Origin: an uncultured Bacteroidales bacterium
GTDB taxonomy: Bacteria; Bacteroidota; Bacteroidia; Bacteroidales; UBA932
DNA: 64,000 nucleotides
NCBI GenBank assembly: GCA_949286415.1
Contig: CASEBV010000027.1
Coordinates: forward strand, 1 to 64,000
Reading direction: 5' to 3'
Shown: piece after piece, positions 3,721 through 32,255 of the stretch
Layout of the letters: every line of letters begins with the position of its first letter
Numbering within the stretch: the stretch's first letter is position 1
Made by a program: the position numbers and the translations under genes
The notes under the pieces: model-generated
The model's database searches: none
The model's input: only the letters and a program-made list of their open reading frames with translations
What the model was told of the DNA's origin: nothing

Positions 3721-6700
3721 CTACAGACCTGCGACTGCCTTGTTGGATGATCTGTCTATGAATGCGGTGATTTCAGAAGGAGTCTCATAAACACTTACAA
3801 ATTGGCCCCCAGCCACACGCGGGAGAGCCTCAATTGCTTCTGCATCAATCGAACCGCTTCCCGTGACCGTATTGACGGCGAGATATCCGATTCCAAGTGA
3901 GGTTATATTCTGGAAGAAATGTGTTCCCTGACTTGGCTCAATCTGGTAGCCCGGTATGCCGCATTCTACGATGAGCTTCGCTTCCGAGATTTCCTCCCAG
4001 ATTACAGGCACTCCGAGCCACGGATCAGATGACCCCCATCGTCCCGGACCCACAAGCATATAGGACTTGCCGTCTTTCTTCATTGCCGCATTGAATCCCG
4101 CGATTTCAGCCTTCATGTCACGGGTTCTGGCACTGTCGAACTTGTCCGGACTTATGTACATTATATACCTCATTCCCGGGATATGGCCTGAGCCGAGAGC
4201 TCTGGAAGATGAAACAAGGACAGTTCCGAGCCCGGAAGCAACTTCATCGACATCGGTTTCCTTGTCATCAAAATATTCACTTACCGGTCTTATCTGCAAT
4301 AATTTCAGAACACAGGCGCTGCCTCCTGACTCCGGAATGACATCTGCGGCAAACTCCATCTCAACATCGCTCATAAGTTCATTCTTGCAGATTGCGAGCA
4401 GATCAGATATGACTTTGGCAAGAGGGAAGCGGCCGTATTTGAGTATAGAGTCAAAGGATATCACCCTCGGTCCCGGAACAGCCGCACCGGGAACCATCCT
4501 GTTGTCGGCGGCACTGAAAGTGGATGCCACGAGTTCCGGATAAGGATAGGACCTGAGGATTTCCGCGACAGGTTCATGGGCAAGATTGATTCCGTCGTTT
4601 CTTGAAATTTTGAACGCCCCGGGCCTCAGGTCAAGCGCATACATCATCTTCTGGGTATCACGCATGGCCAGTTTCGGGTCTGAAAGCTGAAGAATCTTTT
4701 TCGGATACTTCGGACTGAACCTGAGGGTACTGCCTCCGTCTACTACAGTCTTGCCGAGACCGAAGGCGAGATTCACAATCCCGTCCTCAGGCTTCTCGTT
4801 TCCTATCGGATAGAAATTCACAGATCTTGCAACCCCGGACAGCATCGGATAGTAGAGCCCGTTGTGTTCAGTCCCGCATATACTTTGTATGACTACGGCC
4901 ATCTTCTCTTCACTCAAGAGGTTGCCGGTCGTATGAATATATGTTCTGCTGCCGTTGAAGAATACTGAGGCATAGACGCTCTTGATGGCCTTGCCGAGCA
5001 TGCGCAGCATCTGGTCCATATTCTCCGTAAGGGGCACCATATATGTGGAATATACTCCTGCAAAAGGCTGATAGTTGCTGTCCTCAAGCTTGGAACTGGA
5101 TCTCACTGCAAGGGGACTCCTGACTGTAGAGACAAAAACCTTAAGCTCATCGACGAGCTGCTCCGGGAGGCGGGAGGCGACAAATTCCGAGAGTATTTCA
5201 TCATCCGAGATATCTGAATCAATCACGTATTGGAGTCCGTTTTCAAGGACAAACTGATCGAAATAGTCTGTGGCGATGACTATCGTCCTCGGTATGGAGA
5301 CTTTTATTCCGGGATATTTGTCTGTAAGGTGATACTTGAGAATCAGACTGTTGAGAAATCCGAGCCCTCTTGCCTTCCCGCCCAGAGAACCTTCCCCGAC
5401 TCTGGAGAACCAGATGTATTTCTCGTATGTGTCCTTGTCAAAATGCGCTATGACTCCTCTTCCCGTCAGCGCATGGTAGTCGTGGATTTCCTGAGTCACA
5501 TAAGCCCTGAGTTCCTCTGTGCTGGCAAAATGGCTGTCCTGGACCTTACGGAAGCGGTTCGCCAGTGTGAAGAGTCCTCTGGCAAAGAACCATTTCGACA
5601 ACATGTTCCTCGATGTGTTGTGAAGCAGCACTTCATCCGGAATCTCCTTGATGCAGTGCTCAAGATCCTTGAGATTGGAGGCCCTGCCGTATTCAACCCT
5701 GTTTTTGTCCCTGAATACAAAGTCCCCGAATGCAAACTCCTCTTTCATGTATTCGGAGAGCTGAAGCATGAGTGTCTTTGAATATTTCCTCAGGAAGCCG
5801 ACGCCAAGCTCATTGGCCACCTTCTCCATGCTTTCCTGGGATGACTGGAGCAGCACGGGCATGTAAGGGTCGTCTGCCTTGATCATTCTCACCAGATCCA
5901 CTCCGGCATCCGTCTTCTCAGTATCAGGAGGATCGTTCCGGTGAAGCACGAAGCCTACATCTGAAATCACACCGAGAATATTCCGCTTGTACTTCCGGTA
6001 GAGAGCATCGGCATCCTCATAATTTGTCGCGAGAAGAATCTTAGGACGGGACCGCTTGCGAGCCTTTTTCTGCTGGTCATTAAGAGTCTCCTTCAGAAAT
6101 TCCGCACTCTGCAGCAGCACCATCCGGTACAGTTCCGGAAGATAAGTCGAATAGTATCTTACCGAGTCTTCCACCAGCAGAATTGCCTGTACCCCGATTC
6201 CGAGTATGTCAACCTCTGCATTCTTCTGGTCTTCGAAAAGCTTGATTATAGCGACAATCAGGTCTGTGTTCCCGTGCCAGCTGAATATCATGTCAACGGA
6301 TGAGGTATCCTGGAAAGACAGCCGCCGGTATATCTCCTTTGAAAAATGCGTCAGCAGCACAAAAGGGACATCATGGCCAAGAGTCTTGAGATAATCTGCA
6401 AAAGCGAACACATCCTTGTCTCCGACATTGTACATGCAGATGACCATATCTATGCCCGGATCCCTGTCAATGATATTTCTGGCTTCAGATGCAGTTGTCG
6501 CCCATACGAACTGGGGCGGATTAGTCAGGTTGAGCTCGATGTATTCTCTGTATATCTGCACATCAATCTGTCCGTCTTCTTCAAGTATGAAGGCGTCATA
6601 ATGACTGCATATCATCAGTATTTTTCTGATTCTGAACTTAATCAGCGACTCATAGTCGGTATGTTCAAGTTCCTTGAGATTGACAGGTTCGACGGTGTTC

Positions 6701-6747
6701 ATTTCAATCGCATTATACTCTCTATACCGCCGTCCTTGAAGCATCAT
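3721..6747 (-). CDS. Receiver-domain / PEP-pyruvate-binding (PPDK_N) fusion protein
   Basis: A 1008-residue cytosolic protein. Residues ~40-170 form a degenerate response-regulator-like fold (phosphoacceptor position in IDMVICMYN is not Asp). Residues ~190-360 form a second receiver (ILLVEDS, then GVISDVGF with the acceptor Asp, and FLRKYSK with the conserved Lys). From ~450 it has the ATP-grasp nucleotide-binding domain of PEP synthase/PPDK (GSLGGKARGLGFL, SPLAVRSSSKLEDS, LLQIRPVS). The swivelling phosphohistidine domain and the PEP barrel of true PEP synthases are missing, so it is unlikely to make PEP. It could be a phosphotransfer or regulatory ATP-grasp enzyme. A promoter at 6791-6822 allows either M1 or M16 (6702) as start. 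Confidence 0.8.
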   Translation of the reverse strand: MMLQGRRYREYNAIEMNTVEPVNLKELEHTDYESLIKFRIRKILMICSHYDAFILEEDGQIDVQIYREYIELNLTNPPQFVWATTASEARNIIDRDPGIDMVICMYNVGDKDVFAFADYLKTLGHDVPFVLLTHFSKEIYRRLSFQDTSSVDMIFSWHGNTDLIVAIIKLFEDQKNAEVDILGIGVQAILLVEDSVRYYSTYLPELYRMVLLQSAEFLKETLNDQQKKARKRSRPKILLATNYEDADALYRKYKRNILGVISDVGFVLHRNDPPDTEKTDAGVDLVRMIKADDPYMPVLLQSSQESMEKVANELGVGFLRKYSKTLMLQLSEYMKEEFAFGDFVFRDKNRVEYGRASNLKDLEHCIKEIPDEVLLHNTSRNMLSKWFFARGLFTLANRFRKVQDSHFASTEELRAYVTQEIHDYHALTGRGVIAHFDKDTYEKYIWFSRVGEGSLGGKARGLGFLNSLILKYHLTDKYPGIKVSIPRTIVIATDYFDQFVLENGLQYVIDSDISDDEILSEFVASRLPEQLVDELKVFVSTVRSPLAVRSSSKLEDSNYQPFAGVYSTYMVPLTENMDQMLRMLGKAIKSVYASVFFNGSRTYIHTTGNLLSEEKMAVVIQSICGTEHNGLYYPMLSGVARSVNFYPIGNEKPEDGIVNLAFGLGKTVVDGGSTLRFSPKYPKKILQLSDPKLAMRDTQKMMYALDLRPGAFKISRNDGINLAHEPVAEILRSYPYPELVASTFSAADNRMVPGAAVPGPRVISFDSILKYGRFPLAKVISDLLAICKNELMSDVEMEFAADVIPESGGSACVLKLLQIRPVSEYFDDKETDVDEVASGLGTVLVSSSRALGSGHIPGMRYIMYISPDKFDSARTRDMKAEIAGFNAAMKKDGKSYMLVGPGRWGSSDPWLGVPVIWEEISEAKLIVECGIPGYQIEPSQGTHFFQNITSLGIGYLAVNTVTGSGSIDAEAIEALPRVAGGQFVSVYETPSEITAFIDRSSNKAVAGL

Positions 6748-7200: not shown

Positions 7201-7872
7201 ATGAAAAAATTAATTTTCATCACCTTGTCCATGTTTCTCATTTACCCTCCGGCGTATTCCCAGGATGTGGACCAAATCATGAAGGACAGAAAAGAAATTG
7301 CCAGAATGACAAAGTCTGAATTGGATGCCCGCGCCAGCAAATCAGCCAGAAAAGAAGCAAAGAAATACGAAAGGGATGGCTGGCAAGTTGCTCCGGGACA
7401 ATTGCCTCTCGAAAGACAACTTGACCGCACATACAGAATGCAATATGAATTAGATGATAACTTCCTGCCTAAATACATATTGAGCGAGGCAATGTCTATC
7501 GGGGAAACATACGATGCTGCTAAACTTCAGGCGATGGAACTTGCCAAACTGAATCTTGCAGGCCAGATGCAGAGTCAGATTGTCGCTTTGGTTGAAAATG
7601 AAGTCAGAAACAGTCAGTTGCCACAAGAAGACGCAGTTTCTGCGACTCAGACCATAATGGGCAGCAGAAACCAGATTGCACAGAGCATAGGACGCGTCAT
7701 CACTGTCGTCGAATGCTATAGAGTCAAGTCCGGCAAGAATAAGGAAGTTCGTGTTCAGATTGCATGCCCATCAGATATGGCCATGCAAAGTGCAAAGAGC
7801 GCCATAAGGGAAGAACTTCAGAGAGATGGAGAAAGGCTTTCTGAAAAACTCGATTCAATGCTTGGTCTGTAA
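7201..7872 (+). CDS. Exported LPP20-like protein, first gene of the caspase operon
   Basis: A 223-residue protein with a clear Sec signal peptide (MKKLIFITLSMFLIYPPAYS, cleavage before QDVD). The mature part starts with a charged helical stretch (~25-70), followed by a segment in which AMELAKLNLAGQMQSQIVALVENEV and TVVECYRVKSGKNKEVRVQIA fit the LPP20/FlgT-N-like fold of envelope proteins. ATG 7201 was chosen because it gives the signal peptide. The next gene starts 12 bases downstream and carries a related repeat-like N-terminus (DQAKATALERAKISILADAFG), suggesting the two act in one complex. Exact role unknown. Confidence 0.7.
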   Translation: MKKLIFITLSMFLIYPPAYSQDVDQIMKDRKEIARMTKSELDARASKSARKEAKKYERDGWQVAPGQLPLERQLDRTYRMQYELDDNFLPKYILSEAMSIGETYDAAKLQAMELAKLNLAGQMQSQIVALVENEVRNSQLPQEDAVSATQTIMGSRNQIAQSIGRVITVVECYRVKSGKNKEVRVQIACPSDMAMQSAKSAIREELQRDGERLSEKLDSMLGL

Positions 7873-7884
7873 GTCAATCTTGAG

Positions 7885-8766
7885 ATGAAAGCCTTTTTCC
7901 GAATAGCAGTCTGCATCTGTCTCCTTTTTACGGAAGATCTGGTCCATGCACAAAGAATAATACAGGTACATGGAGAATATACTTACATCGCACCCGGCAA
8001 TGAATCTCTGGATCAGGCGAAGGCAACTGCACTTGAAAGAGCCAAAATCAGCATACTTGCAGATGCTTTCGGCACAGTCATTGGTGCTACGTCCACAATT
8101 GCCGTTGCGGCAGAAAACGGAGTTTCAGATATCAGTCAATTTTCTCTTGGAGAAAGTTCCGTAAAAGGAGAATGGATAGAGACTATAGGAGAACCTGAAT
8201 ATCAGATACAGTATTCAGACATCGGGCTTGTCATAAAGGTGATTGTCAGAGGAAAAGCAAGACGGATTGAGTCCGCTGCGATAGACTTGAATGTCCGGAT
8301 TCTGCGCAATGGAACGGAAGACAGATACGAATCCTCGGATTTTAAAGACGGTGACGAACTGTATCTGTCTTTCCGTTCTCCTGTTTCAGGTTACCTATGC
8401 ATTTACCTCTTTGATGGCGCAGAAAATGTATGGTGCCTGCTTCCTTACAGGCAACAGGCCGGAGGAATTTTCAAAGTCAAGTCCGGGGAACGCTATGTCC
8501 TCTTCTGTTCAGATGAGACCATGGGACTGTCATCGTCTGACGAGGTGGATGAATATGTCATGACATGCTCCGGACAAAGAGAACTTAACAGAATCTATAC
8601 TATTTTCTCCCCAAATGAGTTTTACAAAGCCAACGACGAACATCTGGACGACTTGCTGCCGAGGAGTCTGAAATTTGAAGATTTCATGAAATGGCTTTCA
8701 TCCTGCAGGAGTCGGGACAGCAAGATGTGCGTCGTAACCAACGATATAACCATAAGCAAGAAATGA
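7885..8766 (+). CDS. Exported DUF4384-type protein
   Basis: A 293-residue protein with a signal peptide (MKAFFRIAVCICLLFTEDLVHA, cut before QRI). The N-terminal ~25-120 has an LPP20/FlgT-like segment. Residues ~130-260 carry the DUF4384 pattern of a beta-sandwich with YLSFRSPVSGYLCIYLFDGAENVWCLLP and FKVKSGERYVLF. In many bacteria DUF4384 is found fused to or next to caspase-like peptidase domains, and here a caspase protein is two genes on. Periplasmic or outer-membrane location expected. No catalytic residues recognised. Confidence 0.75.
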   Translation: MKAFFRIAVCICLLFTEDLVHAQRIIQVHGEYTYIAPGNESLDQAKATALERAKISILADAFGTVIGATSTIAVAAENGVSDISQFSLGESSVKGEWIETIGEPEYQIQYSDIGLVIKVIVRGKARRIESAAIDLNVRILRNGTEDRYESSDFKDGDELYLSFRSPVSGYLCIYLFDGAENVWCLLPYRQQAGGIFKVKSGERYVLFCSDETMGLSSSDEVDEYVMTCSGQRELNRIYTIFSPNEFYKANDEHLDDLLPRSLKFEDFMKWLSSCRSRDSKMCVVTNDITISKK

Positions 8767-8782
8767 TTTAATGAACTGCATC

Positions 8783-9535
8783 ATGAAAAAATTCTGCATT
8801 ATTTTATCAATGCTGCTTTTCAGCATTGCAATGTCTGCCCAAGAACCACAGGTGGTTATCCTCAATGACGGAACTGTCATCAAAGGCAATATAGAACAAC
8901 TGCCTGACGGAGGAGCAAGGGTCACGAATGAGTATGGAGACACTTTTGAATATACTTCTGAAGAAATCAGATATATTGGCAAGGAATTGAGCAGGCGGCG
9001 ACTGCAAAAACTGCAGGCAATATCATCTGATTCTCAAGCAAGTCAACCTGCAAAAAGACAATATTTTGATTCGATGAGAGGATACAGATTGTTTCTGGAG
9101 GGAGGAATTGGAATCGGGGGATATACGTCATATTCTTCATATACCACTTCATATGGCAATTCATATTCCAGTTATGATGAGTCATATTCCGTAGTATCTC
9201 CGTTGTTTACGGTTGATGTTATAAACGGATATAGTTTTTCACAATACATATATGTCGGAGGCGGTATTGGACTCAGCTATTCAACTTCATTGTATATTCC
9301 GATTTATGCCCACGCCCGTTCCGTATTTCTCAAGACAAGAGTCTCTCCTTTTGCATATCTCAGCATAGGAGGAGCTATTGATTGTCTGGATACGGCATAT
9401 TCGGGATTATATTTTGATACTGGAGTAGGAATCCTTATACGAAGCTCGAAAAAACACGAATATTGGATAAGTATCAGTGGTGGAACAGAATCCGATTGGG
9501 CCGGGACCCGCTTAAAATTCTCATATGCATTTTAA
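8783..9535 (+). CDS. Exported protein, probable outer-membrane beta-barrel, third gene of the caspase operon
   Basis: A 250-residue protein. ATG 8783 gives a clean signal peptide (MKKFCIILSMLLFSIAMSA-QEP); an in-frame ATG at 8771 would add four residues. Mature residues ~20-70 form a small beta domain (VVILNDGTVIKGNIEQL, TFEYTSEEIRYIGKE) typical of Bacteroidota envelope proteins. From ~95 on, Gly/Tyr/Ser-rich alternating strands ending in a terminal aromatic (FSYAF) suggest a small barrel. It lies 16 bases after the DUF4384 gene and 44 bases before the caspase gene. No named family was recognised. Confidence 0.65.
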   Translation: MKKFCIILSMLLFSIAMSAQEPQVVILNDGTVIKGNIEQLPDGGARVTNEYGDTFEYTSEEIRYIGKELSRRRLQKLQAISSDSQASQPAKRQYFDSMRGYRLFLEGGIGIGGYTSYSSYTTSYGNSYSSYDESYSVVSPLFTVDVINGYSFSQYIYVGGGIGLSYSTSLYIPIYAHARSVFLKTRVSPFAYLSIGGAIDCLDTAYSGLYFDTGVGILIRSSKKHEYWISISGGTESDWAGTRLKFSYAF

Positions 9536-9579
9536 TTTACATATTAATGAATTGCGATAGTAATCATTGAAATATAATT

Positions 9580-11481
9580 ATGAGAAAAGGTATCTTAACA
9601 TTTGCCTGCTGCATTATAGGTATATTTTGCTGTCAGGAAGAATCGCATACACAAGAGTATTTCCCTAAAAAAGATGAATCGGGGAAATATGGATACATGG
9701 CCGGCGACATCTGGATAATCAAGCCTCAATTTGAGCAGGCAGGAGCGTTTTCGGACGGTCTGGCCCCGGTCGTCATCAATGATAAATGTGGATATATCGG
9801 GAAAGACGGCACTCTGGTTATTCCGTATAGATTTGAGTCTGCAGGCATATTTAAGGACGGGTTGGCAGCTGTACAGCTTAACGGGAAATATGGATATATC
9901 GACAATACGGGGAAATCTGTAATCCCTTTCCGGTTTGAAAAAGCAGGGAATTTCAATAACGGTCTCGCACCTGTAAAGCTGAACAATAAATACGGATACA
10001 TAGACAGGTCGGGAAAATCAGTGATACCGTATAGATATGACAAGGCGGATCCATTTAACAATTACGGCGTGGCTACCGTAACTATGGACAATAAATATGG
10101 TTATATTGACAAGACGGGAAAATGGTATAACTCAACGGCAGAAATTTTCAGAAGTTTTTCCGGATATGCGAGACAATATGTCGAGTCCAAAGTAAATCAG
10201 TGGCAGAAAAAAGGAAAATATGAAAAGACTCTGCATTGGCAGCAGCGTGTGACGGAAGAGTCAAGACAGAAACTGATAGACTCTCTTGTCATAGATGCCA
10301 GGACAGAATACATTGCCATCCAGTCAAAAGGAATCAATCCGGAGCAAGTACTTGGTGACTATGATGCTGACGGAGAAATTTTCATGGTTCATGACTCAAA
10401 GTTCGGAACATTGCTCCTGCCTGTTCCTATTGATGAAGCGGAAGCCTTTGAAAAAAGTTTCGGGCAATGTATGAGGAATCCTGAATATTTCATTCAAGAT
10501 GACGGGCTTGCATTGGCTGCCGAGACCTGGACTACTCCTGACGGGAAGAAATACAGTTACAGCAATGACAGGTCATTGGAGTTTGCCATGGCTGACATAA
10601 AATACAATTTTGATCCTATCAAACTTGATTTTAATGACGATTCCGGCCCTGTGACAGGTTCACAGCAATTCAGCAGGAAAAGCATATCGATTGGAAAGTC
10701 TGATGTGGACATAAATATCCCTGAAAACAGAAAGAAAAATGACAAGACATTTGCCGTAATCATCGCAAATGAAAATTATCAGAGGGAATCTTCCGTAAAG
10801 TTTGCTCTGAATGACGGCAGTACATTTGCCGAATACTGCAACAAAGCGTTAGGAATCCCGAAAGAGAACATACACTTGATAAAAGATGCCACACTCAACA
10901 ATATTATAGCAGAGATAGATTGGGTGACTAAAGTTGCTGATGCATACAGCGGAGAAGCCGGCATCATATTTTATTATGCCGGACATGGCATTCCTGACGA
11001 AAAGACAGGAACGGCATATATTCTTCCTGTCGACGGGTATGGATCAAATACGGCTACGGGATACAGGCTGAGTTCTCTTTATGAACAATTGTCTTCAAGC
11101 AAAGCCGCAAGTTCAATAGTTTTCCTTGACGCCTGTTTCAGCGGAGTCCAGAGGACAGGGGACATTCTCGTGGCGGCAAGAGGTATCGCAATCAAGGCAA
11201 AAGACGAGAAGCCGACAGGAAATATGATAGTGTTTTCTGCCGCACAAGGAGACCAGACCGCATATTCTTATGACGAAAAAGGCCATGGAATGTTCACATA
11301 TTATATGCTTAAGAAACTCCAGGAGAGCGGAGGAGATGTAACATTAGGTGAACTTGCTGACTTCGTAACTGAAAATGTAAGCAAAAGATCTATCGTAGAG
11401 AATTCCAAGTCCCAGACCCCGAACATTTATCCGTCTCCTTCATTGTCAATGTCGTGGTCAGAAATGAAGCTGACCAAATGA
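9580..11481 (+). CDS. Exported WG-repeat / caspase-like (C14) peptidase
   Basis: A 633-residue protein. The N-terminal signal peptide region (MRKGILTFACCIIGIFCC) could be a Sec or lipoprotein signal. Residues ~33-180 contain five WG-type repeats (KYGYIDNTGKSVIPFRFEKAG and variants). A linker follows, and then a peptidase C14 domain (~385-625) with the catalytic His469 in YYAGHGI and Cys519 in LDACFSG, so the dyad is intact. WG repeats are beta-propeller-like binding modules. Such metacaspase/orthocaspase-type enzymes cut after Arg/Lys or Asp; specificity is not predictable here. It ends the four-gene cluster and probably acts outside the inner membrane, which is unusual for a caspase-fold protease. 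Confidence 0.85.
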   Translation: MRKGILTFACCIIGIFCCQEESHTQEYFPKKDESGKYGYMAGDIWIIKPQFEQAGAFSDGLAPVVINDKCGYIGKDGTLVIPYRFESAGIFKDGLAAVQLNGKYGYIDNTGKSVIPFRFEKAGNFNNGLAPVKLNNKYGYIDRSGKSVIPYRYDKADPFNNYGVATVTMDNKYGYIDKTGKWYNSTAEIFRSFSGYARQYVESKVNQWQKKGKYEKTLHWQQRVTEESRQKLIDSLVIDARTEYIAIQSKGINPEQVLGDYDADGEIFMVHDSKFGTLLLPVPIDEAEAFEKSFGQCMRNPEYFIQDDGLALAAETWTTPDGKKYSYSNDRSLEFAMADIKYNFDPIKLDFNDDSGPVTGSQQFSRKSISIGKSDVDINIPENRKKNDKTFAVIIANENYQRESSVKFALNDGSTFAEYCNKALGIPKENIHLIKDATLNNIIAEIDWVTKVADAYSGEAGIIFYYAGHGIPDEKTGTAYILPVDGYGSNTATGYRLSSLYEQLSSSKAASSIVFLDACFSGVQRTGDILVAARGIAIKAKDEKPTGNMIVFSAAQGDQTAYSYDEKGHGMFTYYMLKKLQESGGDVTLGELADFVTENVSKRSIVENSKSQTPNIYPSPSLSMSWSEMKLTK

Positions 11482-11501: not shown

Positions 11502-12260
11502 TTACAGGCATCTCCGGCGGAATTCCGCGACTGCGACGGCTGTGGCGACGGCGGCGTTCAGGGATTCCGAACCGGGGTCGTCTGCCGGGTACGGAGGGAT
11601 GTAGAGACGGTCGGAAACGAGTCCGGCGACCTGCGGGGAAATGCCCTCGGATTCGTTGCCGATGACTATTATCGAAGGGGCTGAGGTGCCGCAGTCCAGG
11701 TGCGTCGCATATATGTTGTTGCCGTCAAGGAAGGTACCGTATGCCTTGCCTCCGGCCTTGAGGGCGGCGGAGATGAGCATCGGAATGTCGGTGTAATGGA
11801 AATTCACCCTGAAAATCGCGCCCATGGTAGACTGTACGACTTTCGGATTGAATATGTCCACTGTGCCGCGGGAGGCGAAGACTCCGTCAAGGCCGAACCA
11901 GTCGGCGACACGGAGTATAGTGCCGAGATTTCCGGGGTCACGGATAGTGTCAAGGGCAAGGTAAAGGCCCCGTCCGGAGGCAAACGATGACGAGATCTGC
12001 TGCCGGGAGATGATATCCAGCCCCGACGGCTTTCTGACCGTGGCAAGGACGGGGGACGGGGAGGAGAGCTGCGATATACGGGACATGGCTTCGTCTCCGA
12101 TATCTTCTATTCTGTAGATTTTTTCTACAGCAAAAGGGGAGGAGACAGCCTCCGAGACCATCTTTTCCCCTTCTACGACAAACAATCCGTATTCGTCCCT
12201 GAACTTTTTGGCGGACAGGGAGCGGATTATCTTTATCTCATTGTTTGAAATGCCGCTCAT
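11502..12260 (-). CDS. TrmH/SpoU-family RNA 2'-O-methyltransferase
   Basis: A 252-residue protein with a SpoU substrate-binding domain (~5-75; FVVEGEKMVSEA) and a SPOUT methyltransferase domain (~95-250) showing the three motifs: LDTIRDPGNLGTILRVADW, IIVIGNESEGIS and IPPY...SLNAAVATAVAVAEF. It methylates a ribose in rRNA or tRNA with SAM, working as a knotted dimer. A second paralogue (RlmB) lies at 47.9 kb; this one resembles the generic RNA methyltransferases of Bacteroidota and its target base is unknown. Confidence 0.9.
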   Translation of the reverse strand: MSGISNNEIKIIRSLSAKKFRDEYGLFVVEGEKMVSEAVSSPFAVEKIYRIEDIGDEAMSRISQLSSPSPVLATVRKPSGLDIISRQQISSSFASGRGLYLALDTIRDPGNLGTILRVADWFGLDGVFASRGTVDIFNPKVVQSTMGAIFRVNFHYTDIPMLISAALKAGGKAYGTFLDGNNIYATHLDCGTSAPSIIVIGNESEGISPQVAGLVSDRLYIPPYPADDPGSESLNAAVATAVAVAEFRRRCL

Positions 12261-25504: not shown

Positions 25505-25700
25505 AATAAATCCCTTATAACCAGATATCAGACAAAAGTAGAGATTATTTTTCAATTTGACAAAATGCGCATCCCGGACACCGGCTTGGCAGTATGACAG
25601 ATTTTGTCACACAATTTATATTATGTTAACTTGGATATGCTGGAGGAATCCCCTGCAGGCAGAGGCTGCCGTAAAAATTGATGAAGACACGAATTAAAAG

Positions 25701-31934: not shown

Positions 31935-32228
31935 TTAATTAATAACACATCCAAACAGCATTGTCTGAAGAAAATGGGGGAAAATCACAGATCCGAATAC
32001 ATACAAAAAACGCAGGTTCTCCCATTTTTCTTTTAGCTTTGAGGTCCTGAGAAAACCCTGTAATAAAAGAAAGGAATAGAATACCTGCGTGTATAACAGG
32101 CATCCACTCGCAATGTTCTCTATTACATTTTGAAATTTCTCAGGTTCCAAAGCCAAGAACAATGCAGCAAATGCAACATTATTTATTTCAATAACAGAAG
32201 TAAAAAGAACTTCTGTAATTCGTTTCAA
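31935..32228 (-). CDS. Doubtful membrane protein frame
   Basis: 97 codons, hydrophobic (NVAFAALFLALEPEK, VFYSFLLLQGFLRT), but the only start is TTG at 32228, which overlaps a TAACTTTG -7 box, so it would not lie in that transcript. No family is recognised. It may be leader sequence or a decayed gene. It is listed because nothing else explains this stretch. Confidence 0.25.
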   Translation of the reverse strand: MKRITEVLFTSVIEINNVAFAALFLALEPEKFQNVIENIASGCLLYTQVFYSFLLLQGFLRTSKLKEKWENLRFLYVFGSVIFPHFLQTMLFGCVIN

Positions 32229-32255
32229 AGTTAGTAATTTTTAATTATACGCAAA
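32226..32255 (-). promoter_or_regulatory. Candidate promoter of the small-protein strip
   Basis: On the minus strand TTTG (32255-32252), 18 bases, TAACTTTG (32233-32226). Confidence 0.45.

Follow-up and report, generated by a model that had tools for sequence, protein, structure and literature searches.

Results

A four-gene cluster with a predicted exported caspase

We analysed a 64,000-nucleotide stretch of DNA from an uncultured Bacteroidales bacterium (contig CASEBV010000027.1 of GenBank assembly GCA_949286415.1, positions 1 to 64,000 of the forward strand; hereafter the window), in which a preliminary description made from the sequence had pointed to four genes for exported proteins, spaced by 12-44 bases, the last encoding a caspase-fold peptidase. 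This layout was borne out: four same-strand open reading frames (ORFs), genes A to D, span positions 7201-11481 (Table 1), separated by 12 (A-B), 16 (B-C) and 44 (C-D) bases, and an alternative in-frame ATG for gene C at 8771 would reduce the B-C gap to 4 bases. Genes on the opposite strand lie upstream (3721-6747) and downstream (11502-12260), so that the cluster looks self-contained. As set out below, the conserved core consists of genes A and B together with an exported caspase, and gene C and the WG repeats of gene D are interchangeable.

Table 1. Genes of the cluster and domains of gene D, in window coordinates; export, folds and domain roles are predictions.
Feature	Position	Strand	Description
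Gene A	7201..7872	+	Exported, 223 aa; Lpp20/Tip-alpha fold with SHS2 core (predicted model)
Gene B	7885..8766	+	Exported, 293 aa; N-terminal FlgP/FlgT-like SHS2 domain with long beta-hairpin insert, C-terminal Ig-like DUF4384
Gene C	8783..9535	+	Exported, 250 aa; small beta module at about residues 24-70, then probable outer-membrane beta-barrel, terminal Phe
Gene D	9580..11481	+	Exported caspase (Peptidase_C14), 633 aa; four WG repeats, linker domain, C-terminal caspase
WG-repeat recognition module of D	9649..10132	+	About residues 24-184; replaced by LRR, Sel1 or TPR in relatives
Linker domain of D	10135..10710	+	About residues 186-377; common to the caspases of genomes G013 and G087; resembles part of the WD40 proteins of family f4 found in related operons
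Caspase domain of D	10714..11478	+	His469 at 10984-10986, Cys519 at 11134-11136; motifs YYAGHG and LDACFSG

Recurrence of genes A and B with a caspase

A gene-A profile was scanned against 85,000 species genomes and returned 80 loci, nearly all labelled as Bacteroidales or one of its member families, of which 78 were taken to open-frame calling and labelling with hidden Markov models (HMMs); loci are denoted by L numbers and genomes by G numbers. Homologous operons are found in about 60-70 loci, with gene B adjoining gene A in 70 of 78 and a caspase present in 60 operons. The test of caspase linkage was restricted to the 44 loci that have 5 kb or more of sequence on each side, and in 41 of these a caspase lies no more than 5 kb from gene A. 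All 72 caspases within 8 kb of gene A share its strand, and none was found farther than 8 kb away in 198 kb of flanking sequence. Given this linkage, the shared strand and the position of B after A, the core of the operon is A, B and the exported caspase. The usual order is A, B, zero to three further genes, the caspase and, optionally, the exported transglutaminase-like family f3, and the median gap between A and B is 3 bases.

Among 120 related genomes gene A is present in 13, gene B in 9 and both in 8 (co-occurrence p ~1e-8), and of 22 DUF4384 genes in the relatives, considered independently of A, 13 have a caspase no more than 4 kb away, versus 0.24 expected. The families are thus not found separately, in keeping with their treatment as one unit in the preliminary description. 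Its view that this is not a standard operon has to be modified, since the set of four genes is itself not the conserved unit, while the core recurs in Bacteroidales and is no oddity. A phylum-wide sample of 395 genomes that included the window's own held A in 2, B in 1 and caspases in 123; since A and B hardly occur outside Bacteroidales, this sample gave no useful information. Gene A is the most specific marker of the operon, which is also carried by the cultured gut commensals Phocaeicola plebeius, Bacteroides mediterraneensis, Leyella stercorea and Odoribacter lunatus. The window comes from a Bacteroidales metagenome-assembled genome (MAG), and its closest gene-A records are the near-identical CALUPG010000003.1 and then Candidatus Cryptobacteroides faecigallinarum at 81%; within the genus, identities of 36-43% (G007, G032, G068) fall below the 49-51% seen with other families (G092, G096), a pattern suggestive of transfer or ancient paralogy.

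The possibility that the locus is a single-locus oddity was ruled out by this recurrence across Bacteroidales, and plasmid or phage cargo was rejected, there being no plasmid match and a single unannotated 4-kb 'phage' record. The latter, MT839828.1 (L139), is an unverified 'Bacteriophage sp.' entry with an A homologue (36% over 147 aa) and is probably a bacterial fragment. Likewise, a record titled Staphylococcus sp. MAG (L090) places the operon amid Bacteroidales-like genes and is likely mislabelled.

Several loci depart from the usual arrangement. At L053:10689-11600 (Candidatus Cryptobacteroides faecigallinarum) gene B is apparently interrupted, an 84-aa remnant being followed by a gap before C, with A, C and D open. 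An alternative A cassette in L057 and L077 contains neither B nor a caspase, A being followed by seven conserved families and f3. A parallel cassette in G013 (L033), G087 (L041) and G109 (L038) follows the same plan with another A-type protein: the caspase comes first, and behind it lie an LPP20-like lipoprotein of 190 aa and a DUF4384 protein. In L132 (G466) a 324-aa A homologue lies between an upstream protein with a putative zinc-finger, anti-sigma-like N-terminus and a downstream caspase, a possible regulatory link.

Export signals

Export was called with a crude rule-based signal-peptide predictor, which passed A, B and C of the window and missed D owing to the Cys-rich h-region of the latter. 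In the L053 ortholog of D, a clear signal peptide occupies the corresponding position (MKNFISTIVLCFAGFCGCALDLSAQ/EYLPQ). The earlier statement that all four products carry export signals is therefore clear for A to C, while D is atypical. Conservation of the signals, on which the preliminary description also relied, was evident family-wide, with pass rates of 86% for A, 83% for B, 77% for the caspases and 89% for f3, against 32% for other ORFs and 0-0.4% for internal fragments of the same proteins. A lipobox is found in a minority of A proteins.

Predicted folds of the gene A and gene B products

The gene-A protein of the window has no Pfam match, and LPP20 (PF02169) is absent among the 25 families that most of 75 gene-A homologues match; the alignment of these 75 homologues has 12 invariant columns. 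The structural model (predicted local distance difference test score, pLDDT, 82) nonetheless pointed to Lpp20: each of the nine best Foldseek hits is a Helicobacter protein (Lpp20, Tip-alpha or HP1454; probability 0.89-1.00, with 0.99-1.00 for most), Lpp20 (5ok8) and Tip-alpha leading the list. VIA gave Z 7.8 over 112 residues (root-mean-square deviation 4.2) and also lists FlgT at Z 4.4. The Lpp20/Tip-alpha rows stand clearly above unrelated ones, with modest absolute scores. Gene A is thus predicted to have the Lpp20/Tip-alpha fold, and the label 'LPP20-like' that it had been given is right by predicted fold and wrong by sequence family.

Gene B gives a borderline match to DUF4384 (PF14326), with E 1.1e-5 and 25.9 bits versus a curated cut-off of 27, and with 27.0 bits, over the cut-off, in the genome search; 60 of 67 gene-B homologues match this family at E up to 0.1, the best at 6.6e-9. 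Its model (pLDDT 90) comprises an SHS2-type unit (strand 25-36, helix 42-62), a long hairpin (64-77/80-93) that precedes the next strands, and an Ig-like C-terminal domain, and the best Foldseek hit is 9hmf_A (probability 1.00, E 0.002), a 106-residue chain, taken here to be FlgP, from the periplasmic scaffold of the Campylobacter flagellum. FlgT_N (PF16548) is matched by 3 of 11 wider gene-B homologues (best E 1.3e-3) and is listed for none of the 67 close homologues at E up to 0.1. Ring oligomerisation in such proteins correlates with an insert that follows the SHS2 helix and precedes the second strand, FlgP and FlgT being examples (PMC12222027), and the two strands that follow the helix in gene B, modelled at modest pLDDT, form an insert of this type. 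We therefore predict from the model that B is an SHS2 domain with a FlgP/FlgT-type hairpin insert joined to DUF4384, and the earlier placing of DUF4384 and Lpp20/FlgT-like proteins next to the caspase is supported. Searching PDB sequences with profile B or the caspase domain yielded no informative match.

The caspase and its exchangeable N-terminal modules

The caspase domain of D matches PF00656 (Peptidase_C14) with E 1e-21 and 78.1 bits versus a curated cut-off of 21.4, and its WG repeats match PF14903 (E 6e-47) in four stretches. The His469/Cys519 dyad, reported as intact in the preliminary description, is present in D, and within the caspase family (n = 64) the His is kept in 59 members and the Cys in 60. 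The Asp two residues before the Cys (Asp517 in D) is found in all 64. In ortho- and metacaspases an Asp at this position goes with Arg/Lys-specific cleavage, and given its invariance here D probably cuts after Arg or Lys.

When the N-terminal repeats of the 64 caspases were typed by HMM searches, WG repeats were found in 17, LRR_5 in 13, Sel1 in 9 and TPR in at least 7, so WG repeats were discarded as a defining feature. On the tree of caspase domains the N-terminal module changes at least 12 times, indicating that recognition modules have been exchanged repeatedly.

Five caspases lack one or both catalytic residues, and they form a single clade beside intact WG caspases on the caspase-domain tree. 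In L054, L064, L076 and L085 an inactive-looking copy stands directly upstream of a caspase without such losses (in L054 by motif only), and this conserved pairing suggests regulation. Altered WG caspases were likewise noted in L070 and L126. Inactive caspase variants are reported to be rare in Bacteroidetes (10 of 1078; PMC6426788).

Gene C and the variable slot

Gene C has no significant Pfam match and belongs to a family of six with a conserved N-terminal module. It is a probable small outer-membrane barrel, given that Pfam OMP_b-brl proteins hold its position in other loci and that five of the six homologues end in Phe. The slot between B and the caspase is filled in 33 of 50 operons and empty in 17, and its contents range from C-type barrels (L053, L058, L091, L115) and other OMP_b-brl families to lipoproteins and WD40 proteins. 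An essential fourth component is thus not what C represents, since its family is confined to few loci and other genes substitute for it.

Family f3 is present at 35 of 78 loci; a Cys-Glu-Asp motif is carried by 33 of its 35 members, and its match to Transglut_core is marginal (E 0.08). It was not found in the window's own genome in an uncontrolled search. In L094, L096 and L128 a CHASE2 membrane sensor protein lies between the caspase and f3 in the same operon run. A TIR-domain GTPase of cytoplasmic immunity type is encoded between B and the caspase at L085:10205-11638 and directly after B, at a contig end, at L063:1507-2979, and an AbiGi-like abortive-infection antitoxin directly downstream of the caspase at L111:13733-14440 and L122:13098-13805.

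No strict bacteroidal promoter match was found upstream of gene A. Elsewhere in the window the bacteroidal pattern TTTG-N16-24-TANNTTTG is enriched, with 10 sites in the window versus 1.4 expected (for example 25533-25564 and 32226-32255).

Discussion

A possible scaffolded protease device of the envelope

We favour, with a probability of roughly 0.45, the reading that the locus is one version of a conserved but patchy Bacteroidales operon for an envelope-located, scaffolded protease device with exchangeable recognition modules. Ring formation, activation and target of such a device are hypotheses, which we picture as follows. Gene B protein, perhaps with that of A, would oligomerise into a ring or lattice on the periplasmic face of the outer membrane, and the caspase would be held or concentrated at this assembly, partly through DUF4384. 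Its WG, LRR, Sel1 or TPR front end would bind a ligand or partner, in the window genome perhaps the small barrel C, and clustering or ligand binding would switch on cleavage after Arg or Lys, the target probably being a protein of the envelope or the surface. The transglutaminase-like f3, a second thiol peptidase that is exported, might act next in some lineages. A bolder form of the idea, an extracytoplasmic 'apoptosome-like' device in which FlgP-type rings at the outer membrane bring in caspases and activate them, the exchangeable WG/LRR/Sel1/TPR ends of these caspases sense envelope ligands, and a conserved, catalytically dead caspase partner provides tuning in some lineages, seems to us unlikely.

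Several points weigh against the device. The location of the caspase outside the inner membrane is predicted from signal peptides only, and the part perhaps played by gene C is suggested by position only. In the model of B, confidence is lowest at the hairpin (block pLDDT 64-73), the Foldseek E-values are weak (0.002-0.01), Z for A in VIA is below 8, and VIA was uninformative for the N-terminal domain of B, its rows spanning the Ig-like part only. Finally, several gene-A loci are without both B and the caspase and more distant A genes are without a caspase, so that A and B may have a role that does not require it.

The last point would also be expected if the operon were mainly structural, with A and B building a housekeeping envelope ring or lattice and the caspase serving as its quality-control or remodelling enzyme; indeed, A genes without a caspase, both at some of the 78 loci and in more distant genomes, stand beside other LPP20/PEGA proteins. 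However, the scarcity of the operon across genomes speaks against housekeeping, and caspase linkage is near-universal where testable, which leaves this explanation improbable. A further candidate is a constitutive protease that trims exported or outer-membrane proteins, with A and B as assembly factors and the barrel and lipoprotein genes as substrates. The variable genes of the slot, among which exported products such as barrels, lipoproteins and WD40 proteins are frequent, are placed as dedicated substrates would be, and f3 would supply a second thiol peptidase. On the other hand, the slot is empty in a third of operons (17/50), and the exchange of repeats and the maintained clade of inactive caspases look more like regulated sensing; we consider maturation of surface proteins somewhat unlikely.

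It was also conceivable that the caspase detects phage adsorption or a competitor's attack at the envelope and cleaves an envelope target so that the cell dies. A patchy distribution (13 of 120 relatives), a low G+C content (0.426 in the cluster versus a window mean of 0.482, the 8th lowest of 120 sub-windows), exchangeable recognition repeats, pseudo/active caspase pairs, and the TIR-GTPase (L063/L085) and AbiGi (L111/L122) genes all fit such a suicide module. Yet defence-type genes occur in only a handful of the ~78 operons, with no conserved toxin-like partner and no gasdermin-type effector among the top family hits; PADLOC reports only a generic caspase model, for one gene, in the window cluster and no match to a multi-gene system; and no match on plasmids was found, while phages contribute the one unannotated 4-kb record. 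A suicide, anti-phage or anti-competitor function is accordingly not supported, and we hold it to be quite unlikely; more generally, none of the functions offered in the preliminary description (envelope-damage response, protein maturation, suicide) is established.

Relation to known systems

The nearest relatives in architecture are the orthocaspases and metacaspases with DUF4384, including those of cyanobacteria, where the two are fused (PMC7475262), and the alphaproteobacterial QC pseudo-orthocaspases (PMC6426788). These too pair Peptidase_C14 with DUF4384, as fusions, whereas here DUF4384 resides in an exported protein of its own, encoded in one operon with a protein of the Lpp20 fold; the partnership of DUF4384 with caspases is previously known as fusions only. 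In the literature searched, five papers name DUF4384, three of them on caspase homologues to which it is fused. By their predicted models the fold of A and the SHS2 domain and hairpin of B recall FlgP, FlgT and Lpp20, that is, the Campylobacter basal disk, the Vibrio H-ring and Helicobacter Lpp20/Tip-alpha (PMC12222027). Unlike these, A lacks membership in the sequence family, B adds DUF4384, a caspase is linked, and no flagellar genes were seen in the operons.

Variable partner or recognition modules are shared with EACC1-type and other caspase conflict systems (PMC8195603), gasdermin-caspase systems and type III CRISPR caspases, although the described systems are tied to STAND, TPR or EAD partners and regarded as intracellular, while the caspase here is predicted to be exported; D also misses the cut-off of the EACC1-associated caspase model NF047832 (67.1 versus 140 bits). 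Being exported and having a Cys-His-Asp-like motif set, f3 resembles LapG/transglutaminase-like periplasmic cysteine peptidases, from which its marginal family match and its apparent absence from the window's genome set it apart. An earlier tabulation lists prokaryotic caspases that may carry a signal peptide (PMC3501461). No published description of an operon of A, B and an exported caspase was found in the literature searched, most subscription journals lying outside its coverage; what it offered on envelope caspases in Bacteroides was mainly reviews of host caspases.

In the literature consulted, bacterial caspases are mostly treated as proteins of the cytoplasm or the membrane with a part in cell death or defence, and a widespread operon for an exported caspase contrasts with them. 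For DUF4384 the operon offers a role, as partner domain of caspases, that can be put to the test, and it would make caspase signalling in the bacterial envelope accessible to direct experiments in cultured commensals.

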